Assembly: GCF_009711135.1 (NCBI RefSeq)
Contig: NZ_WMIC01000002.1
Coordinates: 186,001 to 250,000 of the forward strand
Direction: 5' to 3'
Length of the DNA: 64,000 nt
Source of the DNA: Flavobacterium sp. LC2016-01
GTDB lineage: Bacteria; Bacteroidota; Bacteroidia; Flavobacteriales; Flavobacteriaceae
Positions 4,639-64,000 of this stretch are shown here, one piece after another. Made by a program: the position numbers and the translations under genes. The notes under the pieces are model-generated. The model searched no databases. It was not told the origin of the DNA and was given only the letters and a program-made list of their open reading frames with translations. Each line of letters starts with the position of its first letter. Within the stretch, counting starts at the first letter, position 1.

Positions 4639-7053
4639 TTATCCTTTATCAGACAATCTCAAAATATCTCCAAAAACTCCTCTTGCTGTCACCGCAGAAC
4701 CTGCACCGGCTCCTTGAATAACGATTGGACGATCTCCGTAAGATTCTGTGTAAATTTCGAAGAAAGAATCAGAACCTTTTAAACCGCCTAAAGCAGTGTC
4801 TGAAGGAACAGAAACTAATTTTACTTCTAAATTTCCTTTGTCATTTTGCAAATCACCAGACAATTCGCCAATGTATCTTAATACATGATTTGGTTTTTGA
4901 TCGGCTTTTATTTTCTCGTAAATTGGATCGAATTCTTTTAATTTCGTTAAGAAATCAGCAACATTTCCATCGCGTAAATGTTCCGGAATTAGATTCTGAA
5001 TTGAGATTTCTTCAAACTCATTCTGCAAATCTAATTCTCTTGCCAAAATCAATAATTTTCTTCCCACATCATTTCCGCATAAATCCTCACGCGGATCTGG
5101 TTCTGTATATCCGTTGTCAATTGCTTCCTTAAGAATTTCACTAAATGGAACATCTTTTGCAGAAAAATTATTGAATAAATAACTCAATGTTCCAGAGAAA
5201 ACTCCTTTAATTTTTGTGATGTTTTCACCTGAAAGATGCAGTAATTTAATGGTGTCGATTAATGGCAAACCTGCTCCAACGTTGGTTTCGTATAAATAAT
5301 TCTTTTGGTTTTCTGCCAAAGCTTTTCTCAGCTCTTTATAAAAACCATACGTCAATGTATTCGCTACTTTATTCGAAGAAATTAAGTCAAAACTGCTTTC
5401 TACAAGCGGAATATAGTTTTCTACAAATGATGCACTTGCCGTATTATCAATCGCAATTAAGTTTTCTAAATGATGCTCATTTGCGTAAGCGATAATATCA
5501 TTTATTTTGTATTCTTCACCTTTTGTCTGGATATCATTTTTCCAGCTTGAAGTTACGCCATTTCTGTTTAATAAAAGCTTTTTAGAGTTTGCAATTGCAA
5601 AAACATTCAGCTTCACATCTTTACGTTTTTCAATCGCTGCAGCCGATTCTAAAATTTGATTAATCAACGTTCCGCCCACTAATCCGTGACCAAAAATCGC
5701 AATGTTGATTTTTTTAGAAACTCCAAAAATCTCTCCGTGAATTACGTTTAAAGCTTTGTTCAGTTCTTCTTTCTTCACAACCAAACTCACGTTTTTACCC
5801 GTAACCGTGTTGTTGAATAAAATTGGAACTATTTTGTTTTTGATTAATGCAGTATATGGCTTGTGAAAAGTGCTCAAGTCCTGCCCAATAATCGAAATTA
5901 CCGAAACATTATCCGTTACTGTGATTTGGTTTACGTCTTTAGAATAAAAGTCGTTTTCGAACTCTTTTTCCAACTCCACCATTGCGAGAGTTGCTTTGTC
6001 TTTAGCCACAACCAATCCTATTCCTCTTTCTGAAGAACCTTGCGAAATAATGCTTACGCTGATGTTGTGATCGCCCATTACTTTAAAAATTCGGGCATCA
6101 ACTCCAGCTTTTCCTAGTAATCCTCGTCCTTCAAGATTTACCAAAGACACATTTTCTAAAACAGAAAGCGTCTTGATTCCTTCTTTCGCAGAATCTGAAG
6201 TGATTAAAGTACCGCGGTTTTCATGATTGAAAGTATTTAAAATACGAAGCGGAATATTTTTTTCTAATAAAGGAATAATCGTTTTAGCGTGAAGAATTGT
6301 TGCTCCAAAATTAGCCAACTCATTCGCTTCGTTAAACGATAAATATTCGATTTTTTTAGCATCGGCAACTAAATCTGGATTTGCTGTGTAAATTCCGTCA
6401 ACGTGCGTGAAGTTTTGAAGTTCTTCAGCATTCAAATAATTTGCAATTAATGACGCTGTATAATTACTTCCGTTTCTTCCTAAAGTTGTGGTGTCATTAT
6501 TATTATTTGAGCCAATAAAACCTGTAACGATATTTACTGTTTCACCGTTATGCAATTTGAAATAATTGATAACGTTTTTCTTCGAAAGTTGTTCCAAAGG
6601 TTGCGCGTCACCAAATTTTGAATCGGTTTTAAGCAATTCTCTCGTATCGACAAAGTTTGCGGGAATACCTTTTTCAATTAAAATAGCGGTCAATAATTTA
6701 GCCGAAAGCAATTCACCTTTCGACAAAATCTGATCTTTGATTTTATTGCTGTAATCGCCAATCAAGCTTACGCCTTCAAAAAGTTTATCCAGAATATTGA
6801 ATTCTTCAGACAAATCAACCTGACCGTAATCAGAAGTCTGATAAGCTTTAAAACTCTCCAAAAGGGGTTTATAATTCCCATTTTTAGCGGCAATTCTTAA
6901 AATATCTTCTAATTCATCTGTTGCATTTCCTCTTGCAGAAACGACTACGGCAATTTGCTCGCCTTGATTTACTTTATCAGAAATGATTGAAACGACTTTA
7001 TTTAGTCCTTCTCCGTTTGATAATGATTTACCTCCAAATTTTAATACTTTCAT
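4639..7053 (-). CDS. thrA: Bifunctional aspartate kinase / homoserine dehydrogenase
   Basis: An 804-residue fusion, close to the 820 residues of E. coli ThrA. The kinase domain (1-290) shows KFGGKSL at its N-terminus, VVSARGN, and TTLGRNGSNYTASL. ACT regulatory domains follow (about 295-440). The dehydrogenase domain begins with the nucleotide-binding GHGLVG (455-460) and holds the complete homoserine site: VGAGLP, GYTEPDPREDLCGND and the catalytic Lys of GRKLLIL. It supplies aspartyl phosphate and homoserine for Met and Thr. Two bases separate it from metX, which indicates tight co-transcription and directs homoserine to methionine. Confidence 0.96.
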   Translation of the reverse strand: MKVLKFGGKSLSNGEGLNKVVSIISDKVNQGEQIAVVVSARGNATDELEDILRIAAKNGNYKPLLESFKAYQTSDYGQVDLSEEFNILDKLFEGVSLIGDYSNKIKDQILSKGELLSAKLLTAILIEKGIPANFVDTRELLKTDSKFGDAQPLEQLSKKNVINYFKLHNGETVNIVTGFIGSNNNNDTTTLGRNGSNYTASLIANYLNAEELQNFTHVDGIYTANPDLVADAKKIEYLSFNEANELANFGATILHAKTIIPLLEKNIPLRILNTFNHENRGTLITSDSAKEGIKTLSVLENVSLVNLEGRGLLGKAGVDARIFKVMGDHNISVSIISQGSSERGIGLVVAKDKATLAMVELEKEFENDFYSKDVNQITVTDNVSVISIIGQDLSTFHKPYTALIKNKIVPILFNNTVTGKNVSLVVKKEELNKALNVIHGEIFGVSKKINIAIFGHGLVGGTLINQILESAAAIEKRKDVKLNVFAIANSKKLLLNRNGVTSSWKNDIQTKGEEYKINDIIAYANEHHLENLIAIDNTASASFVENYIPLVESSFDLISSNKVANTLTYGFYKELRKALAENQKNYLYETNVGAGLPLIDTIKLLHLSGENITKIKGVFSGTLSYLFNNFSAKDVPFSEILKEAIDNGYTEPDPREDLCGNDVGRKLLILARELDLQNEFEEISIQNLIPEHLRDGNVADFLTKLKEFDPIYEKIKADQKPNHVLRYIGELSGDLQNDKGNLEVKLVSVPSDTALGGLKGSDSFFEIYTESYGDRPIVIQGAGAGSAVTARGVFGDILRLSDKG

Positions 7054-7055
7054 TT

Positions 7056-8045
7056 TTATTTTGCTATTATTTCTGCCTTAAAAATATCGGCAAGTAAAAG
7101 ATCTAATTGTTTGTACTCTATTAAAAAAGCGTCGTGTCCGTGAACCGAATCTATTTCGCTGTAGGAAACATTTTCTTTGAACTTTTTTAATTCATTATAA
7201 GTTTCCAGATTCTCTTTTGGTGTAAAAAATAAATCTGAGTTGATTGCTACGATATGAATCGCTGCGTTTGATTTTGATATTAAAGCCTCGAAATCCTCAC
7301 TATTTCTGGTAATATCTATAGTTTTAAGCAGTTGGTTCATCAATTTATAAGATGCCAATTGAAAACGCTGCTGTAGTTTTTTTCCGTGATGCGCCAGCCA
7401 GCTTTCAATATTAAAAATCAAAAGATCCTGATTAATGGTTCGCTGAAATTTTTCTTTGAATGATTCTGGAGAACGGTAACAAAGCATGGCATGGATTCTG
7501 GCATCTTCAATTGGTTTTGAAGAATTATTCAGAATCTGTTCCTGTAGATAGCAATTTGCGATCATCCAGTCCGTCGATTTCCAGTCGGTTGCAATCGGAA
7601 TTAAATGTTCTGTAATGTTTGGTTCCAATGCTAAAATTTCCCACGCAATTCCGCCACCGACAGAACCTCCAATTATAGCAAACACTTGTTCGATTTGAAG
7701 CGCTTTTAAACCTTTGATAAAAATTCTTGCAATATCTCTGGCTGTAAAATCGTGATAATTTTCAATTACAAATGAATCGTTCCCGTTGCCTGGAACATTA
7801 AATGCCAAAACGGTGAATTTATGGGTGTCAATTGTTTTTTCATCGCCAATTAAATCATTCCACCATCCGTTTGGGCCAGTTACTTGTGCATTTCCTGTCA
7901 AGGCATGATTGACCAAAACAATTGGTGCGGTATGCAAAGGCAAACCAGAAAGCGTAAAACTTAACGGTAATGATGAAAATATCGCACCACTCTCTGTGAT
8001 GAAATTTTGAATTATAATGGGATTGGGTATATTTTCCAATTTCAA
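7056..8045 (-). CDS. metX: Homoserine O-acetyltransferase (MetX family)
   Basis: A 329-residue alpha/beta-fold acyltransferase, somewhat shorter than typical MetX (350-380). The family HALTGNAQ segment is at 48-55, nucleophile S128 lies in IGGSVGGGIAWE, the acid is probably D271 (NSDLFFTP) and the His is H304 (VHGHDAFL). It activates homoserine with acetyl-CoA for sulfhydrylation by MetY or MetZ. It heads the metX-thrA-osmC-metZ group. Its leader carries a SAM-I riboswitch (8121-8227), so expression should respond to S-adenosylmethionine. Confidence 0.92.
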   Translation of the reverse strand: MKLENIPNPIIIQNFITESGAIFSSLPLSFTLSGLPLHTAPIVLVNHALTGNAQVTGPNGWWNDLIGDEKTIDTHKFTVLAFNVPGNGNDSFVIENYHDFTARDIARIFIKGLKALQIEQVFAIIGGSVGGGIAWEILALEPNITEHLIPIATDWKSTDWMIANCYLQEQILNNSSKPIEDARIHAMLCYRSPESFKEKFQRTINQDLLIFNIESWLAHHGKKLQQRFQLASYKLMNQLLKTIDITRNSEDFEALISKSNAAIHIVAINSDLFFTPKENLETYNELKKFKENVSYSEIDSVHGHDAFLIEYKQLDLLLADIFKAEIIAK

Positions 8046-8120
8046 ATCTTTTTATTTATGATTTGTATGTGGAAATATTAGAAAGAAAGTCTAGAGTTTG
8101 AAACTAGAAAAATTCTTGTT

Positions 8121-8227
8121 GTTATCTTTCCACGTTTGGGCGTGGTAGAATGCAGCACCTTCTTCGAATTAACGAAGGGTTGCTAAGGATTCATCGGGTC
8201 TAATCCCTCCTCCTTTCTTTATAACAT
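8121..8227 (-). promoter_or_regulatory. SAM-I (S-box) riboswitch upstream of metX
   Basis: On the minus strand the S-box landmarks occur in order. P1 is TGTTAT...ATAACA (8222-8227 with 8121-8126). GGGATTAGACCCGATGAATCC is the kink-turn P2 segment. GCAACC (8179-8184) and GGTGCT (8155-8160) form P3, CCACG...CGTGG forms P4, and AAAGATAAC (8122-8130) closes the element. A plausible -33 TTTG lies at 8256-8259. No clear terminator follows before the metX ATG. A CTTTCTTT run at 8082-8089 is complementary to the AAAGAAAG at the start of the element, a possible alternative pairing. Confidence 0.95.
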
Positions 8228-8415: not shown

Positions 8416-8619
8416 TTAGATAAAAAGCGTTTCATTCTCTTTTGAATACATTAAGAACAATAAAGAATTTGGATCTTTTTTCACCTCTTTTTTATCTGTC
8501 TCAGTCATTCCAAATCTTGGATGAACTAATTCATTTGTTGGCGGAGGCGGATTGTTTCTTTTAGCTCTTATGCTTTTCAATGTCAAAAATGTTTTTGATA
8601 AGTAGTTTAATGTGCTCAT
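8416..8619 (-). CDS. Small uncharacterised protein of the SLLFxMY family (copy 1)
   Basis: A 67-residue hydrophilic protein; I do not recognise the family. The start at 8619 (MSTLNYLSK) is preferred over an in-frame ATG at 8646 because the product then aligns with the protein at 11829-12014: both begin M[SK]TLN and both end SLLF[LQ]MY[SD]xExExxx. It has a basic N-terminal half and a PPPP stretch but no membrane segment or Cys. It lies between the leader-peptide terminator (8699-8736) and the metX SAM riboswitch, so it is the first gene controlled by that attenuator. A regulatory role is possible but unproven. Confidence 0.6.
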   Translation of the reverse strand: MSTLNYLSKTFLTLKSIRAKRNNPPPPTNELVHPRFGMTETDKKEVKKDPNSLLFLMYSKENETLFI

Positions 8620-8698
8620 GATATTTAAGTTTAAGTTAGTTTGCATTTTATAATCTTTACTATTTCTTTAATTCTTTGTTATGCTAGTCAAATGGAAT

Positions 8699-8736
8699 AA
8701 AAAAACCCTTTCGGATTTTTAATACCAAAAGGGTTT
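8699..8736 (-). terminator. Attenuator-type terminator after leader peptide 1
   Basis: On the minus strand AAACCCTTTTGG pairs with CCGAAAGGGTTT (one G-U pair) around a loop TATTAAAAAT and is followed by a run of T. The 5' arm also pairs with GATACTAAAAG (8760-8770) directly after the leader peptide stop codon, giving an alternative antiterminator. The stem core is nearly identical to the terminator at 12041-12076. It could also serve as the end of the metY/homoserine-dehydrogenase transcript. Confidence 0.8.
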
Positions 8737-8768
8737 AAGTTTTATAGAACTTATATATACTTTTAGTA

Positions 8769-8834
8769 TCAACAGACGCGTACACAAATACGTGCGACGT
8801 TAAACATCTTGTTCATCTGTAGGGATTTATTCAT
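8769..8834 (-). CDS. Leader peptide 1 (Met/Cys-containing, putative attenuator ORF)
   Basis: A 21-codon ORF: ATG preceded by an A-rich stretch, Met at 1, 7 and 10, and a basic C-terminus RICVRVC with Cys at 17 and 21 just before the TGA stop. The terminator at 8699-8736 begins about 33 bases after the stop, and its 5' arm is complementary to the bases overlapping and following the stop codon. This is the arrangement of amino-acid attenuation leaders. Functional translation is inferred from the match to two similar leaders in this window. Confidence 0.65.
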   Translation of the reverse strand: MNKSLQMNKMFNVARICVRVC

Positions 8835-8970
8835 TTGTTGTTTGACTTCTATTTTAAAAAAATTCTGCATTTAATTTTCTTTAATGAGCTTTTTGATTTG
8901 ATTAATTCCAAAAAGCGATTGTTTATTTTAACAATTAAGCGTCTCTTTTTAACAGATCTTACTTGTCTTA

Positions 8971-9174: not shown

Positions 9175-10263
9175 TTAAAGCCAGACCGCTTCCTTATTTT
9201 TGATTTTTTCGGCTACTTTTAAAATATCAGTTATAATTCCTCTCGAAATTGCCTGTTTGCAAGGTGACGCTCCTTGTATAACAATAGGAACATCTGCATA
9301 AGACTTTGTGTAGATTTCGAAAATAGCGTCAGATCCTTTTAACTGCCCAATTGCAGAGGTTATAGGTTCTGAAACTAATTTTACTTCCAAAGTATTTTTT
9401 TCAACATCAAATTCGCCTACATATCGCAGCACATGATCTTCTGCCTGAGTGATTTTTGCAATTTTATAAGATCTATCAATTGCTTCTTTATTTAAGATGC
9501 CATTTTTCTCTAAATGTTCTTCTCTTATTATAGGATTGATTTTTATATCAGACAATTCAAATTCCTTCCCAATTTCTCGAGTTAAAATCAATAGTTTTTT
9601 GGCAGTATCGTTTCCTGACAAATCTTCTTTAAAGGTAGAACGCATCAAACCAAGAAGGCTGGCATCTTTTAGAATTGATGAAAAAGAATTTTCTTCTGCA
9701 GAAAACCGATTAAAAACATAACTCAGATGATCTGAAAAAACACCTCTGATCTTCGTGATTTTTTCGCCCGAATAATACAAATCTCTCAAGGTCTGCAAAA
9801 CCGGAAATCCTGTATCAACTGAGGTTTCATACAAGAATTCTTTATCGTATTTCTTAAGATTTTCTCTTAATTGTTTGTATAAATCAATTGGAAGTGTATT
9901 CGCCTTTTTATTTACAGCAACGATATTAAATCCGTTTTCGATCAAAGTATTATAATGACTAATCAGTTCGTCACTGGCTGTAGCATCAACGGCGATCAAG
10001 TTTTCGAATTCATTTTCTTTTGCAAATTCTATAATATCCTCCACCCTGAAAGGAACGGCCAATTCTCTAAAATTGGTTTCCCACGCATATCCAACGCCTT
10101 CTTTCTCGAAAAAAGCAACAGTTGAATTGGTAATTATTGGAAAATGAAAATCGACATTTTTACTCTGCAGAAAAAATTCCTGACTTTCGATAATCTGATT
10201 GATTAAAGTGCTTCCGATATTTCCAATCCCGAAAAGAATAATATTTATTTTAAGCTTTGACAT
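9175..10263 (-). CDS. Homoserine dehydrogenase-like protein with altered active site
   Basis: A 362-residue protein resembling only the dehydrogenase half of ThrA (compare 4639-7053). The start MSKLKINIILFG at 10263 is preferred over an upstream in-frame codon. The nucleotide site GIGNIG is kept, as are the Asp residues and Lys of DLSGNDTAKKLL. The homoserine-site motif GYTEPDPREDL of ThrA is GLMRSTFKEDL here, losing the conserved Glu, and VGAGLP is VDTGFP. It may therefore be a weak, altered or regulatory dehydrogenase. It lies 182 bases after metY and is probably co-transcribed with it under the attenuator at 12041-12186. Confidence 0.8.
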   Translation of the reverse strand: MSKLKINIILFGIGNIGSTLINQIIESQEFFLQSKNVDFHFPIITNSTVAFFEKEGVGYAWETNFRELAVPFRVEDIIEFAKENEFENLIAVDATASDELISHYNTLIENGFNIVAVNKKANTLPIDLYKQLRENLKKYDKEFLYETSVDTGFPVLQTLRDLYYSGEKITKIRGVFSDHLSYVFNRFSAEENSFSSILKDASLLGLMRSTFKEDLSGNDTAKKLLILTREIGKEFELSDIKINPIIREEHLEKNGILNKEAIDRSYKIAKITQAEDHVLRYVGEFDVEKNTLEVKLVSEPITSAIGQLKGSDAIFEIYTKSYADVPIVIQGASPCKQAISRGIITDILKVAEKIKNKEAVWL

Positions 10264-10333
10264 AATTTTAATTTTTAAAACATATCTAATTTTTATTGAA
10301 CCATATAAGTTTAAACATCTCGTTTTACGATTT

Positions 10334-10356
10334 AGACGCACTGCTGTGCGCCTCTA
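10334..10356. repeat. Short palindromic element between metY and the dehydrogenase-like gene
   Basis: GACGCAC and GTGCGCC (one G-U pair in RNA) flank TGCT, giving a compact hairpin without a T tract. It resembles short dispersed palindromes of Flavobacterium genomes. Only one copy is seen in this window, so its repeat nature is not shown here. Confidence 0.4.
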
Positions 10357-10445: not shown

Positions 10446-11750
10446 CTAATTTTTATTGATACTGTACTGCGCTTGTGTAACGCTTTCAAAAACCGCTTTT
10501 AAGTCGGCGATTAAATCTTCAATATCTTCGATTCCAACAGAAAGTCGGACTAAATCTTTAGAAACTCCAGTCAACAATTGATCTTCTTCAGACAATTGCT
10601 GGTGCGTTGTGCTTGCTGGATGTATAATCAATGATTTTGTATCGCCAATATTGGCTAATAATGAGAACAATTTGGTTTCGTCTACCACTTTTTTGGCCGC
10701 ATCAAAACCTCCTTTTAATCCAAAAGTGATAACACCGCTTTGTCCCGCAGGAAGATATTCCTTGGCTAAATCATAATATTTATTCGATTTCAAACCTGGA
10801 TAATTTACCCAAACCACCTCATCTTGTTTCTCCAGCCATTCAGCCAAGGCCAAAGCATTTTCGCTGTGTTTTTTAATTCGGATTGGCAAAGTTTCTAATC
10901 CCTGAATAATCTGAAAAGCATTAAACGGACTCAAAGCTGCACCAAAATCGCGCAAACCTTCAATTCGTGCTTTTGCAATAAAAGCTGCATTTCCTAAAGC
11001 TTCATGATATACTAATCCGTGATATCCTGCCGAAGGCTCTGTAAATTCAGGGAATTTTCCGTTAGACCAGTCAAAAGTTCCGGCATCAATAATAACGCCT
11101 CCTAATGACGTTCCGTTTCCGGAGATATATTTTGTTAAGGAATGAATTACAATATCGGCACCATATTTAATAGGGTTTAATAAATAAGGTGTCGCAACTG
11201 TATTATCTACTATAAAAGGCACTTTGAATGCTTTGGCTTCCGCCGAAATTCCTTTTAAATCCAATACATCTAATTTTGGATTTCCTAATGATTCTACAAA
11301 GAAAGCTCTCGTATTTTCTTTTGCTGCTTTAGTGAAGTTTTCTGGTTTTGAAGGATCTACAAAAGTGGTTGTAATTCCTAATCGAGGCAAAGTTACATTT
11401 AGCAGATTATAGGTTCCTCCGTATAAACTGTTTGAAGCTACGATATGATCTCCGGCTCTTAGCAAAGTCAAGAAAGTTGTTGAAATTGCCGATGCTCCAG
11501 ATGCCGTAACTACAGCTCCAATACCGCCTTCAAGCGCCGCTAAACGCTGTTCTAAAACATCATTTGTTGGGTTATTTAGTCTTGTATAAATAAATCCGGC
11601 TTCAGCAAGACCAAATAAATTGGCAGCATGATCAGCATTATTAAATACATATGATGATGTCTGATAAATTGGCACTGCTCTTGTTCCTGCATTTTTAGTA
11701 ACATCGTGCCCTGCGTGTAGCGCGTTTGTTGCAAATTTTTGTGTACTCAT
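10446..11750 (-). CDS. metY: O-acetylhomoserine aminocarboxypropyltransferase/cysteine synthase family
   Basis: A 434-residue PLP enzyme of MetY length, longer than MetZ/MetB because of an insertion around residues 225-265. K207 in HSLTKYISGNGTSLGG binds PLP and D182 (FIVDNTVATPY) supports the ring. It makes homocysteine from O-acetylhomoserine and sulfide, using the product of MetX. It is preceded by a small protein gene (11829-12014) and a Met/Cys-rich leader with terminator, and is followed by the dehydrogenase-like gene. This suggests a methionine/cysteine-responsive operon. Confidence 0.93.
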   Translation of the reverse strand: MSTQKFATNALHAGHDVTKNAGTRAVPIYQTSSYVFNNADHAANLFGLAEAGFIYTRLNNPTNDVLEQRLAALEGGIGAVVTASGASAISTTFLTLLRAGDHIVASNSLYGGTYNLLNVTLPRLGITTTFVDPSKPENFTKAAKENTRAFFVESLGNPKLDVLDLKGISAEAKAFKVPFIVDNTVATPYLLNPIKYGADIVIHSLTKYISGNGTSLGGVIIDAGTFDWSNGKFPEFTEPSAGYHGLVYHEALGNAAFIAKARIEGLRDFGAALSPFNAFQIIQGLETLPIRIKKHSENALALAEWLEKQDEVVWVNYPGLKSNKYYDLAKEYLPAGQSGVITFGLKGGFDAAKKVVDETKLFSLLANIGDTKSLIIHPASTTHQQLSEEDQLLTGVSKDLVRLSVGIEDIEDLIADLKAVFESVTQAQYSINKN

Positions 11751-11828: not shown

Positions 11829-12014
11829 TTAAACAAGAAAACTTTCTTGTTCTTCGAGATCATACATTTGAAACAATAATGATCTTTGAGCTTTTATTTT
11901 CTGCTCTGTATTGATTCGTACAACTTCTCTAGTTATGTCTTCTGATTTATTATTGTTTTTTTGAGAATCGTTTCTCAATAAATACTCAATTGCGATTGAA
12001 TTTAGTGTTTTCAT
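11829..12014 (-). CDS. Small uncharacterised protein of the SLLFxMY family (copy 2)
   Basis: A 61-residue charged protein of unknown family. It shares its beginning (MKTLN) and its end (SLLFQMYDLEEQESFLV against SLLFLMYSKENETLFI) with the protein at 8416-8619, while the middle diverges. It has no Cys, membrane helix or signal peptide. It lies between the attenuator terminator (12041-12076) and metY, with 78 bases to the metY start. Its repeated position behind two Met/Cys attenuators suggests it belongs to the sulfur amino acid circuit. Its function cannot be named. Confidence 0.65.
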   Translation of the reverse strand: MKTLNSIAIEYLLRNDSQKNNNKSEDITREVVRINTEQKIKAQRSLLFQMYDLEEQESFLV

Positions 12015-12040: not shown

Positions 12041-12076
12041 AAAAAAGCCCTTTCGGATGGCTACCAAAAGGGCTTT
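12041..12076 (-). terminator. Attenuator-type terminator after leader peptide 2
   Basis: On the minus strand AAGCCCTTTTGG pairs with CCGAAAGGGCTT (one G-U) around loop TAGCCAT, then six T. The CTTTTGG of the 5' arm is perfectly complementary to CCAAAAG in the last codons of leader peptide 2 (12109-12115), so a mutually exclusive antiterminator is possible. The stem core matches the terminator at 8699-8736. It might also end the TonB receptor transcript that lies upstream. Confidence 0.85.
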
Positions 12077-12105
12077 TAGTTCTAACTAAAACCAAGATTT
12101 AACTT

Positions 12106-12186
12106 TTACTTTTGGCAACAGCAAATTGGGATGCACATTTGCATCATCTGACAACACATCACCATATTATTTACTATTGTTTTCAT
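12106..12186 (-). CDS. Leader peptide 2 (very Met/Cys-rich, putative attenuator ORF)
   Basis: A 26-codon ORF with six Met (1, 8, 10, 14, 15, 17) and six Cys (11, 12, 18, 22, 23, 24), ending ICCCQK. It starts 48 bases or so after a good promoter (12240-12271) and has no homology to a larger protein. Two overlapping, mutually exclusive hairpins lie within the ORF (GATGCA/TGCATC and GCAAAT/ATTTGC). Its last codons pair with the terminator arm downstream. This is the classical layout of ribosome-mediated attenuation, here apparently sensing Met and/or Cys charging, placed before metY. Confidence 0.78.
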   Translation of the reverse strand: MKTIVNNMVMCCQMMQMCIPICCCQK

Positions 12187-12239: not shown

Positions 12240-12271
12240 TAAATGTAATATTTATTTATTTAACAGCCAAA
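12240..12271 (-). promoter_or_regulatory. Promoter of leader peptide 2 / metY operon
   Basis: On the minus strand TTTG (12268-12271), within TTTGGCTG, lies 20 bases before TACATTTA (12240-12247), which fits the Bacteroidota consensus apart from the final base. The same TTTGGCTG box begins the promoter of leader peptide 3. Confidence 0.6.
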
Positions 12272-12353: not shown

Positions 12354-15200
12354 TTAAAATTTAAAGCTCAAACGTGCAAAACCAAATCTACCGTTCAATC
12401 CAAATTGCGAAACCGCTCTTGAATATGCAAACTGATTGGCATTGGTCAAGTCCGTGCTTGGTGCTGGCGATAAAGTTGGAGTTGTATTTGTAAAGGCCGG
12501 AGTTGCAGGATTATTTCTGTCCGGATAAACATCCCCTATATTATTAAATCCAATTGTCGCTCTAAAATGTTCATTGATCTGATATCCTAAAGATAAATCG
12601 GTTACTAATTTTGCACTGTATTCTGGATGTTCGTATACAGAAGAGCTTCCATCTAAATTCACATCTGTTGCTCCTGGATCCGTCACTTTTCCAAAATAGC
12701 TGTTTCTTAAATAAATATCCAGTTTCTTAATGCTGAAAGTTGTCATTAAATTCGCTTTCAATCTCGGAATTGCTTCTTCTAAATACACCCTGCTTGACTC
12801 TGGAAAAAATGAATATTTATAAGGTTCACCGCCCGCATCAATAATAGATTGAGGTACATTTAAATCGCCAACTCTTTTCGTTTCATTGTAGCTCAAAGCC
12901 AAATCATTTCGGATAATAAAATCAGGAATAACATCATATTTCTGAGAAATTACCAAATCAATTCCTTTTGTTTCAGAGTTGATTCCGTTTGTCCAAAACG
13001 AAGCTCGTTCAACTCCTTTTGTGTCAAATGCCTGTTGAAACAAAGTCAATGCTTCCGCTTGTCCAGGAGTTGTAGCCGCTGCAATCTGAGCATCTGTTGG
13101 TCTTGAATATTGGCCTGTCAAAACAATTCTGTCGTCGATTCTGGTAAAATAAGCATCTGTTGCAATTGTGATATTCGCTTCAGGAATTTTAAACGTAAAT
13201 CCCGTACTGATGCTTTTTGATTTTTCAGGCTTTAGATTTTCAACTCCAATACTTTTTGCTGCTTGTGAATCATTTGTAAAATAACCCACCTGATATGGTG
13301 ATCCATTTATAAATTGCGTTGAACTTGATTCAAAATATTTTTGCTGTAATGATGGCGCTCTAAAACCTGTCTGACCAGAAATTCTCCAGTTGATATTTTC
13401 ATTCAGCTTTAAAAGAGAAGCTAATTTGAAGATCACTGTACTTCCAAAATCTGAATAGTTTTCATAACGCACTGCTCCGTTTACCAACCATTTTTCAGTT
13501 ACATTTAATTCTAAATCAAGATATGCTGCGCCGCTGTTTCTGTTTTTTTCTTTAGCATCTGAAGGCTGAAATCCTGAAAATCCCTGCGCTCCTGCTCCAC
13601 GTTTGTTTCCAAAAAAGTCGGTAACAATTAAAGGTGAATTGCTTGGCAGAATTCCCGAAACCAAAGCTCCATTTACATCATACAATCCATAAGAAGCTTC
13701 TTCCCCTTGTTTGATTTGGTAATTTTCATATCTGAATTCCCCTCCAAAAGCAACGTTTAAACCTGCAAGAACATCATATTTTCTGGTAAAATCTAAATTG
13801 GTTGTACTTTGCAAAAACGAAACTTTACCTGCATCAAAACTAAAAGGAGAATTGGTTCCTAAAGTTGCATTTATGGTATTGTTTACATCATATTGAAAAG
13901 AATTTGTTCCGAGGTTCGTGCTCAAATCAGTATCAAATCCGAATAATTCTGTATTTACTCCAACCGCTGCCGAAGCATCTAAAATCTTTGACTCAATTTC
14001 CGGCAGAAATCCGTTTTGATACACTTGCGTGAAAGTTCCTGAGCCATTTGGAAGTCTGTTGAACGCATATGATTTACCATTTCTATACGATATTCCCCCA
14101 AAAGAATATAGAGAGGTCGTTTCGGTCAAAGGATATTTTGCATTATAATAAGCTTGACCCGATGCCAATTCTGACTGTCCCACACTCATATTATAGTCGG
14201 TTCTCTGCTGACCTCTGTATGCAAGCTCATTATTGGTAACATCAAAACTCAACGCTGTCTGCATTTGCGTAAGCGTTGTTGCGCCCGCGATCGCATTTTG
14301 TTGTGCAGTCGTAAAATAACTTACCTGTGGCGCATATTGTTTTAAAGAACTTAAAATTTGTGCCGAATTTGGAGTTGTATTGATATTGCTGAATAATGAA
14401 TTGATTTGAACACCGCCTTGCGCCGCTCTGTTTTCAACCGCATTGTAAGCGTTAAAAATAGCATTGTTTCTAATTCCGGCTCTGCTTGTTGCTTCTCTTG
14501 TCACCGCACTTGCCGTAACATTCAGGAAACTTCCTGGTTTTCCTAATGAAGTTCCGTAGTTTAAATCGACTTGCAGAGTTTGTCCATCGGCTCCGCCTTT
14601 AAAATCATTAGATCCAGAGGATAAATTGGCTCCGTATTGAATTCCTCCTGAAATAAAATTGGCATTCTTTTTAAGGACAATATTAATTACTCCGGCAATG
14701 GCATCAGAACCATATTGTGCTGCTGCTCCATCTCTTAAAACTTCGATTCGGTCAATTGCAAAAGAGGGAATTGCATTTAAATCGGTACCAACAGATCCTC
14801 TTCCTGGTGATCCGTTTATATTTACCAAGGCACTTGTATGTCTTCGTTTTCCGTTCACTAAAATTAAAACCTGATCGGGTCCCAATCCTCTCAGCTGAGC
14901 CGGATCAACGTGATCTGTTGCGTCTGCCGTTGATGTAGGATTACTGGTAAACGACGGTGCAACATAATTTAAAATTTGAGTTACGCTTGTTTGAGGCGAT
15001 CCTTTTGTAATTTCAGTAATACTAAAAATATCAACAGGAACTGGAACATCAGTCTTTACTCTGTTTTTACTTCTGGACCCCACAATCGTAACTTCTGATA
15101 ATTCATTATTTTTTAGCGTATCCTGCTCAGTTTTATTTTCCTGTGCATAAATTCCTGAAAATGTCAAGATACTTAAAAAGGCTAGTACATTTTTTTTCAT
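12354..15200 (-). CDS. TonB-dependent outer membrane receptor, probably for a sulfur-linked nutrient
   Basis: A 948-residue receptor. A signal peptide of about 19 residues ends in IYAQ. A plug domain follows, with QLRGLGPDQVLILVNGKRR and RIEVLRDGAAAQYGSDAIAGVIN, and then a long beta-barrel ending in aromatic FKF. It has no N-terminal carboxypeptidase-like domain, so it is a classical importer rather than a SusC type. Its leader holds a Met/Cys-rich tiny ORF followed directly by an intrinsic terminator, so synthesis is probably tied to methionine or cysteine supply. This suggests import of a sulfur source or cofactor; the actual ligand cannot be told. Confidence 0.9.
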   Translation of the reverse strand: MKKNVLAFLSILTFSGIYAQENKTEQDTLKNNELSEVTIVGSRSKNRVKTDVPVPVDIFSITEITKGSPQTSVTQILNYVAPSFTSNPTSTADATDHVDPAQLRGLGPDQVLILVNGKRRHTSALVNINGSPGRGSVGTDLNAIPSFAIDRIEVLRDGAAAQYGSDAIAGVINIVLKKNANFISGGIQYGANLSSGSNDFKGGADGQTLQVDLNYGTSLGKPGSFLNVTASAVTREATSRAGIRNNAIFNAYNAVENRAAQGGVQINSLFSNINTTPNSAQILSSLKQYAPQVSYFTTAQQNAIAGATTLTQMQTALSFDVTNNELAYRGQQRTDYNMSVGQSELASGQAYYNAKYPLTETTSLYSFGGISYRNGKSYAFNRLPNGSGTFTQVYQNGFLPEIESKILDASAAVGVNTELFGFDTDLSTNLGTNSFQYDVNNTINATLGTNSPFSFDAGKVSFLQSTTNLDFTRKYDVLAGLNVAFGGEFRYENYQIKQGEEASYGLYDVNGALVSGILPSNSPLIVTDFFGNKRGAGAQGFSGFQPSDAKEKNRNSGAAYLDLELNVTEKWLVNGAVRYENYSDFGSTVIFKLASLLKLNENINWRISGQTGFRAPSLQQKYFESSSTQFINGSPYQVGYFTNDSQAAKSIGVENLKPEKSKSISTGFTFKIPEANITIATDAYFTRIDDRIVLTGQYSRPTDAQIAAATTPGQAEALTLFQQAFDTKGVERASFWTNGINSETKGIDLVISQKYDVIPDFIIRNDLALSYNETKRVGDLNVPQSIIDAGGEPYKYSFFPESSRVYLEEAIPRLKANLMTTFSIKKLDIYLRNSYFGKVTDPGATDVNLDGSSSVYEHPEYSAKLVTDLSLGYQINEHFRATIGFNNIGDVYPDRNNPATPAFTNTTPTLSPAPSTDLTNANQFAYSRAVSQFGLNGRFGFARLSFKF

Positions 15201-15260: not shown

Positions 15261-15290
15261 AAAAAAAAACCTCTGCGGTCTGCAGAGGTT
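15261..15290 (-). terminator. Attenuator-type terminator after leader peptide 3
   Basis: On the minus strand AACCTCTGC pairs perfectly with GCAGAGGTT around a 5-base loop, followed by more than eight T. The only thing upstream on this strand is the leader ORF, because metK is divergent, so it cannot be an ordinary gene-end terminator. GCAGGG in the leader codons (15327-15332) can pair with the 5' arm (six pairs, one G-U). Confidence 0.88.
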
Positions 15291-15314
15291 TCTATATCTA
15301 TTTTTGAAAAAAAA

Positions 15315-15383
15315 TTACAACAGAGTCCCTGCGGAAAGTTCCGGCTTCATACAAGACATCATATTGCAAACTGCTAATTTCAT
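15315..15383 (-). CDS. Leader peptide 3 (Met/Cys-rich N-terminal half, putative attenuator ORF)
   Basis: A 22-codon ORF with Met at 1, 8, 9 and 12 and Cys at 6 and 11, followed by ten codons without either residue. It starts about 20 bases after a promoter and ends 25 bases before the terminator stem. A ribosome waiting at codons 6-12 would leave codons 18-19 free to pair with the terminator arm, while one that finishes would cover them. That is the logic expected for attenuation of the TonB receptor gene. Confidence 0.7.
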   Translation of the reverse strand: MKLAVCNMMSCMKPELSAGTLL

Positions 15384-15406: not shown

Positions 15407-15438
15407 CAAAGTTGCGAACTATTTTTTAATCAGCCAAA
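15407..15438 (-). promoter_or_regulatory. Promoter of leader peptide 3 / TonB receptor
   Basis: On the minus strand TTTG (15435-15438), within TTTGGCTG, is followed after 20 bases by CAACTTTG (15407-15414), one base from TANNTTTG. The leader ATG is about 20 bases further on. Confidence 0.6.
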
Positions 15439-15557: not shown

Positions 15558-15568
15558 CACCCGAATAC

Positions 15569-15665
15569 AGAGGAAAAATTTGAACTGATTGCAACCTCTT
15601 CATAATGAAATGGTTCGTTATGAGTGCTGAGAGATTAATTTCGGCAGTAAAAAATGCTAAAGCAG
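15569..15665 (+). promoter_or_regulatory. SAM-II-like (long-loop / SAM-V type) riboswitch upstream of metK
   Basis: P1 is AGAGG (15569-15573) with CCTCT (15595-15599). Its loop ends in GATTGCAA, and the 3' strand AAAAATGCTAAAGCAG (15650-15665) matches the SAM-II pattern ATTGCAA...AAATGnnGCTAAA. CTG (15585-15587) in the loop can pair with CAG (15663-15665) to close the pseudoknot. Between P1 and the 3' strand lies an unusually long insert of about 50 bases with its own hairpins (CATAATG/CGTTATG and GCTGA/TCGGC), as in the SAM-II long-loop variant known from Bacteroidota. The class assignment comes from motif comparison by eye. Confidence 0.8.
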
Positions 15666-15687
15666 AAACTCTCCTTTAGCCCTTTTT
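15656..15687 (+). terminator. Possible terminator hairpin overlapping the metK riboswitch
   Basis: GCTAAAG (15656-15662) pairs with CTTTAGC (15674-15680), then CCTTTTT. The 5' arm is the same segment used as the 3' strand of the SAM-II-like pseudoknot, so the two structures exclude each other. A CTCTC (15669-15673) in its loop could also pair with GAGAG (15629-15633). Confidence 0.5.
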
Positions 15688-63689: not shown

Positions 63690-63721
63690 TTTGATTTTTC
63701 TGTTTTTTTAAACTAATTTTG
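63690..63721 (+). promoter_or_regulatory. Promoter of rpsO
   Basis: TTTG (63690-63693), 20 bases, then TAATTTTG (63714-63721), a full consensus match. The leader of about 50 bases is the usual place for S15 autoregulation, but no recognisable fold was confirmed. Confidence 0.7.
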
Positions 63722-63776
63722 CACCCGTCTTACAAAAGTTGTATGACATACATAAAAATCATTAAATAATATTGGA

Positions 63777-64000
63777 ATGTATTTAAGTAAAGAAAAGAAA
63801 GAAGAGATTTTCGCACAACACGGTGGTGCAACAAACACTGGAAGCGCAGAAGGTCAAATTGCATTGTTCACGTACAGAATTTCACACTTAACTGAACACT
63901 TGAAAAAAAATCGTCACGATTACAACACTGAGCGTTCTCTTGTACTATTAGTAGGTAAAAGAAGAGCTTTGTTAGATTACTTGAAAAAGAAAGAAATTAA
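63777..64000 (+). CDS. rpsO: 30S ribosomal protein S15 (cut by window end)
   Basis: The first 74 codons of S15 from the ATG at 63777. MYLSKEKKEEIFAQHG, NTGSAEGQIALFTYRISHLTEHLK and NRHDYNTERSLVLLVGKRRALLDYL are the rRNA-binding helices. The last 15 or so residues lie beyond base 64000. S15 binds 16S rRNA helix 22 early in subunit assembly. Confidence 0.97.
   Translation, partial: MYLSKEKKEEIFAQHGGATNTGSAEGQIALFTYRISHLTEHLKKNRHDYNTERSLVLLVGKRRALLDYLKKKEI

Follow-up and report, generated by a model that had tools for sequence, protein, structure and literature searches.

The met locus of the window

The window, that is, the whole stretch of 64,000 nucleotides analysed here, comes from a genome of 5.2 Mb and carries on its minus strand a met cluster comprising metY of the O-acetylhomoserine sulfhydrylase family (10446..11750; TIGR01326, above cut-off), a homoserine dehydrogenase-like gene recognised by family search (9175..10341), a metX-like gene (7056..8045; TIGR01392 at 181 bits, below the cut-off of 500) and thrA for a bifunctional aspartate kinase/homoserine dehydrogenase (4639..7053; NF006959, above cut-off). 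A gene for a TonB-dependent receptor (12354..15200, minus strand) lies upstream of metY. Three short ORFs on the same strand, numbered leaders 1 to 3 in the direction of transcription and each followed by a terminator, belong to the putative attenuators 1, 2 and 3, situated before the TonB gene, before metY and before metX, respectively. The preliminary description of this DNA concerned leader 2; it did not mention the 1:2 pairing within this leader, attenuators 1 and 3, the arrangement in tandem or the larger set of genes.

An Rfam search revealed a SAM-I riboswitch (RF00162, 78 bits; 8119..8227, minus strand) downstream of attenuator 3 and upstream of metX, and a SAM-II riboswitch before metK (15564..15670, plus strand). 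They flank the attenuators, SAM-I sharing a 5′ region with attenuator 3, and were the only SAM aptamers returned, so that such an aptamer at the leaders themselves was rejected. An S15-Flavobacteria ribosomal protein leader was found at 63714-63779 (plus strand). Two small ORFs are also present on the minus strand, one of 61 amino acids between attenuator 2 and metY (11829..12014) and one of 76 amino acids 3′ of attenuator 3 (8416..8646). Neither has a Pfam or NCBIfam match; by eye they have a C-terminal SLLFxMY pattern in common, a resemblance that would suit joint duplication of leader, terminator and small ORF.

Leader 2 upstream of metY

Leader 2 (12106..12186, minus strand) is an ORF of 26 codons, MKTIVNNMVMCCQMMQMCIPICCCQK, recognised from the ORF list, its codon table and its conservation. 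It contains 6 Met (the start counted) and 6 Cys and is present before metY where the preliminary description had placed it. Met and Cys make up 2.5% of the 17,385 residues of the long window ORFs; against this background, at least 11 Met/Cys among 25 non-start codons gave a binomial P of 8e-12, with 604 window ORFs of 10-60 codons competing in the composition test. Terminator 2 (the 3:4 hairpin; 12043..12077, minus strand), AAAAGCCCTTTTGG/TAGCCAT/CCGAAAGGGCTTTT, starts 28 nt past the leader 2 stop codon, its 5′ arm occupying 12077-12064 and its 3′ arm 12056-12043, with a U-tract (T in the DNA) to 12041. Just as first described, CTTTTGG in the 5′ arm and CCAAAAG (12115-12109) within the final leader codons are exactly complementary, and with the flanks this duplex extends to 11 pairs, GTTGCCAAAAG:CTTTTGGTAGC.

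The end of the leader, segment 2 (12109..12123, minus strand), repeats the sequence of the terminator 3′ arm and is composed of UGCUGUUG (12123-12116), the partner of segment 1, overlapping GUUGCCAAAAG (12119-12109), the antiterminator strand of the 2:3 helix. Segment 1, CAAUAGUA, covers codons 3-6 (12172..12179, minus strand) and was assigned by covariation. The 171-nt leader 2 RNA folds better than 200/200 shuffles (z -4.4). A G-U pair in the terminator 3′ arm (CCGAAAG), taken earlier for a feature balancing the competition, does exist in the window; since the 55 aligned loci have either G (34) or A (21) at this position, the notion of a fixed balancing feature was dropped. By matches to the TTTGG... 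pattern, which we take to be a promoter motif, candidate promoters were located on the minus strand 5′ of leader 2 (TTTGG...TACATTTA, 12240..12271) and 5′ of leader 1 (TTTGG...CAACTTTG, 15407..15438); the pattern gave no match before leader 3 in the window.

With the window metY as an anchor, 80 named loci were collected, all from Flavobacterium or close Flavobacteriaceae (metY identity up to 99%). A leader-2-type ORF was found upstream of metY in 80/80 of them, and a terminator together with a leader/5′-arm duplex of at least 6 bp in 81/81 leader-2-type ORF rows. The consensus reads approximately MKTIAxxNMMCCxMMQMCIPxCCCQK, with Met or Cys at codons 9-12, 14, 15, 17 and 18 in at least 35 of the 42 distinct 26-codon forms (62 distinct ORFs in total), and the last Cys triplet is more variable than the Met/Cys block. 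Both the Met/Cys ORF and the complementary segments were conserved in the alignment upstream of metY that the preliminary description had proposed. A constitutive intergenic terminator preceded by a chance ORF is a reading favoured by the commonness of terminators between operons and by the TonB gene, which ends about 170 bp before leader 2; the conservation of the ORF in all the named loci contradicts it, the covarying pairings and the recurrent association with the same pathways, both described below, argue against it as well, and we consider it extremely improbable.

For the comparison of structures, alignment A2 was composed of 55 sequences hand-picked for diversity, namely the window, L068 and 53/111 leader-2 candidates; loci without metY in tblastn, or without leader or terminator by the filters, stayed outside the alignments (L044, L046, L048-L050, L052, L056-L062). 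In these 55 sequences, the 12 pairs of terminator 2 were paired in 99.7% of cells, with two-sided change in 6/12. The 1:2 helix of codons 3-6 with 21-24 was paired in 94.2%, with two-sided change in 6/8 pairs, and was matched by 0/500 shuffles on all five measures. Sliding it by -3 columns (one codon) also gave 6 two-sided pairs, 17 cells vs. 18 in register; the same slide left only 60.7% paired and lowered the covariation score to 0.149 vs. 0.329. The leader 2 antiterminator, counted with the two small hairpins that its strands enclose, reached 92.7%, with 10/19 pairs two-sided and 0/500 shuffles as good; within it, the 2:3 helix itself had two-sided change in one pair only, the rest being one-sided (A-U to G-U, C-G to U-G). 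RNAalifold on the trimmed leader 2 alignment returned the terminator only, and no conserved structure besides the described helices was seen in the alignments. We take the helix of codons 3-6 with 21-24 to correspond to 1:2 in classical attenuators, which would complete the trp-like set of 1:2, 2:3 and 3:4.

An A at position -3 of the start codon occurs in 66/75 leader-2 rows and 21/28 leader-1 rows. In one report, the phylum is stated to be without Shine-Dalgarno sequences and F. johnsoniae to prefer A(-3) at starts, a preference that the leader start sites fit (PMC6847099).

Leaders 1 and 3 and the tandem layout

Leader 1 (15315..15383, minus strand), an ORF of 22 codons, MKLAVCNMMSCMKPELSAGTLL, was taken from the ORF list and matched model R1 with 114 bits. 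Its composition in the window is marginal (P 1.4e-4, uncorrected for the 604 ORFs). Many relatives have it as a second ORF upstream of leader 2, with the consensus MKLxxCNMCCMMxxxSAExxIV and a terminator of its own; it lies ≤1 kb from metY in 34/80 named loci. In the window, terminator 1 is AGAAACCUCUGC/AGACC/GCAGAGGUUUUU (15265..15293, minus strand; U-tract to 15260), and the antiterminator strand GCAGGG (15327..15332, minus strand) was assigned by its pairing and its co-change with the terminator arm.

Alignment A1 comprised the window and 37/46 leader-1 candidates, picked by hand for diversity. Terminator 1 was paired in 99.1% of cells, with two-sided change in 4/9 pairs, and the antiterminator helix showed two-sided change in 1/6 pairs (AU, GU, CG, GC). 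Strand and arm vary jointly between genomes, as in GCAGAGG/CCTCTGC, GCAGCGG/CCGCTGC and GCAGGG/CCCTGC, and further in GCAAGGGC/GCCCTTGC, GCGAAGGC/GCCTTTGC and CAAGAGGC/GCCTCTTG. In a swap test on 18 sequences from 18 genera, the own duplex scored 16.78 vs. 12.68 for swapped arms (0/50,000 permutations); when each distinct arm core was represented once (n=13), the scores were 17.65 vs. 11.92 (0/50,000), and with n=25 the own arms stood above the swapped ones in every permutation. Sequence by sequence, the own arm was unbeaten in 10/18, the arm of another genus pairing better in 8/18; for L258, no real pairing of segment and arm was found. The covariation of CTTTTGG with CCAAAAG that had been looked for is thus borne out in part: the segments co-vary between genera in leader-1-type copies, and leader 2 itself shows little of it because CTTTTGG is nearly invariant within the genus. 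An inner helix for leader 1 was rejected (67.7% paired; shifting the entire structure by +3 raised the score from 0.101 to 0.141), and a search for a clear 1:2 pairing in leader 1 yielded just a G-U-rich candidate.

Leader 3 (8769..8834, minus strand), MNKSLQMNKMFNVARICVRVC, has few Met/Cys codons and an additional in-frame ATG at 8870. Attenuator 3 (8703..8766, minus strand) consists of a CUAAAAG element (8766-8760) and the terminator arms 8736-8725 and 8714-8703, and its match to model R2 (58 bits) spans 8843-8697. By a fixed motif, a terminator of this type with a similar ORF was found after metY in 75/80 named loci.

In genomes without the TonB gene, leaders 1 and 2 are adjacent, in tandem, while in the window genome the TonB gene separates attenuators 1 and 2. 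A window-like spacing, with leader 2 near and leader 1 3.4-3.8 kb upstream, was found in 20/86 metY loci of the genus; three other far-spaced cases differ, G030 and G111 having two metY copies and G062 no R2 match. In L246 and L248-L251, leader 1 is followed by what looks by eye like the same TonB receptor gene. Since the TonB gene of the window stands between the attenuators, only leader 1 would control it, and metY would be under leader 2, perhaps under both.

Over about 100-150 residues, the closest solved relatives of this receptor are mostly siderophore receptors. Soft metals can be bound by peptides dense in Met and Cys, and this, together with the position of the window leader 1 before such a receptor, would suit a peptide that senses a metal (copper) by stalling the ribosome via the nascent chain. 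Most genes adjoining the copies belong to sulfur amino acid metabolism, however, and leader 1 before met genes is often without Cys (L184, L186, L191, L193, L261, L287), which makes a metal sensor very unlikely in our estimation.

Leaders at other operons and in other genomes

A nucleotide search with the leader gave matches in 95/199 genomes of the genus (E ≤ 0.001), of which many are short and chance-like. In a survey of 150 genomes of the genus, metY was found in 84 (86 loci), and 81 of the 86 loci have at least one attenuator upstream; at E ≤ 1e-5, both models matched at 58 loci, R1 only at 20, R2 only at 3 and neither at 5. In the family, metY is present in 137/199 genomes, and R1 reached at least 45 bits in 19/199 and R2 at least 50 bits in 11/199. 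Looser tallies at E ≤ 0.01 gave 147/199 and 36/199, many of the matches resembling the terminator alone; the weak R1 matches of the family (about 31-43 bits) were rejected as leaders and taken as terminators, the five inspected (L202-L206) being without a Met/Cys leader.

The order yielded 19/196 genomes at E ≤ 1e-6. Three belong to other families, and there the copies stand, by eye, before a cysH-like gene (L256), metX (L258) and metY (L259). The class yielded 8/198 at E ≤ 1e-5, four of them outside the order: L322 has a copy before metY (blastp), L323 a leader with MKMMNNGMCCCC before a putative sulfite reductase gene (by eye), and L321 looks false. In L324, a Lys-rich leader, MKMICKNKKHDKKLFHSGKGN, with GGAAAGG/CCTTTCC lies before an asd-like gene (by eye), a layout that is perhaps the same architecture for lysine.

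Away from metY, we found 62/141 of the R1 matches of the genus, 30 of these 62 with an R2 match ≤300 nt downstream. Gene context was examined for 60 copies, namely 58/62 of those away from metY and two before second metY copies. The first recognised gene was metX in 21, osmC-like in 17, cys (cysHDN or cysE-cysK) in 8, thrA in 4, cystathionine-synthase-like in 3, metY in 2, metH in 1 and hom in 1, with none recognised in 3. These names come from blastp matches to references, all of them verified except the osmC-like one, which had no match and whose label is our own; other first-gene names, including those of the family and order copies, were given by eye.

The codon content of the leaders differs between these groups. 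Leader-1-type copies before cys operons have 3-4 Cys and 1-4 Met in 7/7 readable of 8, and those before cystathionine-synthase/metH have 5-7 Met and 0-1 Cys in 4/4 (Mann-Whitney P 0.003 and 0.005, both nominal, the grouping having been made with the data in view and the relatives not being independent). Copies before metX have on average 1.8 Met and 1.5 Cys (6/21 with at least 3 Met), and copies before osmC 1.2 Met and 1.3 Cys. Enrichment in end-product codons is thus found in leader 2 and in the cys and cystathionine-synthase/metH copies, and not in most metX and osmC copies; a simple sensor reading does not explain the Met/Cys-poor copies. Second leaders before osmC-hom(-metH) in L267, L272, L278, L290 and L309 have WM or TWM, not Met/Cys runs. 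In L288, L305, L307, L310, L311 and L312, a Met/Cys-poor leader-1-type copy precedes a leader-3-type ORF and then metX, again in tandem.

These data bear on the possibility that a protein or a small molecule such as SAM recognises leader and terminator as an RNA element and that the ORF is incidental. The strong conservation of the RNA and the SAM riboswitches of the same cluster (SAM-I before metX, SAM-II before metK) would fit such an element. What is conserved, however, is Met/Cys codons in one frame, for the cys and the cystathionine-synthase/metH copies their content tracks the pathway, no Rfam family reached its gathering score on the leaders, and the alignments revealed no conserved structure besides the described helices. 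We therefore regard an RNA element of this kind as unlikely.

Proposed mechanism of the attenuation

Taken together, the ORFs, segments, terminators, covariation and gene contexts, all established by comparison, suggest that each copy is very probably a ribosome-mediated transcription attenuator for sulfur amino acids. A conserved intrinsic terminator stands before the structural gene, the leader region holds an antiterminator exclusive with the terminator, and in the folding model, made for window leader 2, the stall position selects the helix. We infer translation of the leaders, ribosome stalling, tRNA sensing, the direction of the response and serial action as follows: the attenuators would probably switch the sulfur amino acid genes on at Met or Cys shortage.

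The leader ORF would be translated as RNA polymerase proceeds. With too little charged tRNA-Met or tRNA-Cys, the ribosome would stall in the Met/Cys block, that is, at codons 8-18 of leader 2 and at NM..CMM or MMMW of leader 1, leaving segment 2 (CCAAAAG or GCAGAG) free to pair with segment 3 once this is made. The 2:3 pairing would make the terminator (3:4) form too late, such that metY would be transcribed. Under fast translation, the ribosome at the stop codon would cover segment 2; in leader 2 after release, segment 1 may pair with part of segment 2, thereby cutting the antiterminator from 11 to 7 pairs, and 3:4 would then form and end transcription. Acting in series, leader 1 would be mainly a Met sensor and leader 2 a sensor of Met plus Cys.

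The dependence on ribosome position was predicted by folding window leader 2 with the RNA masked to 9 nt past the A-site codon (assumed footprint). Before the 3′ arm is out, 2:3 forms in this model with the A site at codons 2-20, with 0.62 at codon 21 and at no later codon; therefore, Met8-Met17, Cys11, Cys12 and Cys18 would be usable sensors, and Cys22-24 would not. The model thereby justifies the earlier caution that a stall at the last Cys triplet masks CCAAAAG, giving no 2:3 with Cys22-24 in the A site. Further support comes from L160 and L169, which lose the triplet and keep the RNA: a one-base insertion turns CCCQK into LLLPKV, and TTGCCAAAAG is kept.

Across the alignments, the folding model forms 2:3 before the 3′ arm is made in 54/55 leader-2 and 38/38 leader-1 sequences. 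With the whole terminator present, 3:4 wins at every modelled ribosome position, and likewise in 54/55 leader-2 and 37/38 leader-1 sequences, so that control must be kinetic. When no ribosome is modelled, 1:2 and 2:3 coexist (0.70 and 0.99); an untranslated leader would therefore be predicted to read through, unlike in trp.

Discussion

The leaders of the trp, his, leu, thr and phe operons are ribosome-mediated transcription attenuators of amino acid operons. The leaders described here have in common with them an end-product-rich leader, an intrinsic terminator, an antiterminator strand at or near the ORF end and, in leader 2, a likely 1:2 pairing. Unlike them, the present leaders combine Met with Cys, carry the antiterminator strand within the last codons, stand two in series, have A-rich start sites and match no Rfam leader at cut-off. 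Membership in an Rfam amino acid leader family was accordingly rejected. Phe_leader came nearest, with 27.6 bits at leader 1 (E 0.0084; cut-off 55), and His_leader scored 20.7 bits against a cut-off of 49.

Salmonella mgtCBR has a series of two attenuators, each with a short leader ORF, one of these being Pro-rich; the pair is reported to sense ATP and proline and to control a Mg transporter/virulence operon (PMC3641672). Unlike in mgtCBR, both leaders concern sulfur amino acids here, and the pair recurs before several operons. Cys-codon-rich leaders before Cys genes are a feature shared with the actinobacterial cys operons, whose Cys-rich leader peptides have no conserved terminator (PMC1262725), and with the Rhodobacterales cysS motif uORFC-8-2, a Cys-rich leader with two conserved Cys codons (PMC8632094); the accessible parts of these two papers report such leaders neither before met genes nor in Bacteroidota.

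Within the phylum, 'strong clues' of leader-peptide attenuation before amino acid biosynthesis operons are mentioned for F. psychrophilum (PMC9723704). The section of that paper on 5′ cis-regulatory RNAs names pheA and hisG among the conserved elements and contains no met/cys leader, though its supplements may list one. For Bacteroides thetaiotaomicron, PMC7366714 refers to sORFs in long 5′ UTRs that are reminiscent of leader peptides, BT_4401 being named. Among the literature matches listed, supplements aside and as far as the text of the sources was accessible, we found no description of a Met or Met/Cys leader-peptide attenuator in Bacteroidota. In other words, the kind of control is known; the signal, the phylum, the tandem within one pathway and the spread over operons appear to be new as far as the literature was searched.

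Whether the finding extends further is in our view evenly balanced: modular tandem attenuators would be the main sulfur-amino-acid control in many Flavobacteriales, with codons tuned per operon and two serial sensors, would occur also beyond the order (L322) and may serve lysine (L324). To our knowledge, methionine control in bacteria is known mainly via SAM riboswitches, T-boxes and protein regulators. A Met-codon attenuator, if true, would add direct sensing of tRNA-Met beside the SAM riboswitches in one cluster. The attenuator reading also predicts a link of the TonB receptor to the supply of sulfur amino acids. Finally, the logic of two attenuators in series is open to experiment, given the tandem arrangement, the codons matched to the pathway and the natural splitting of the pair by the TonB gene.
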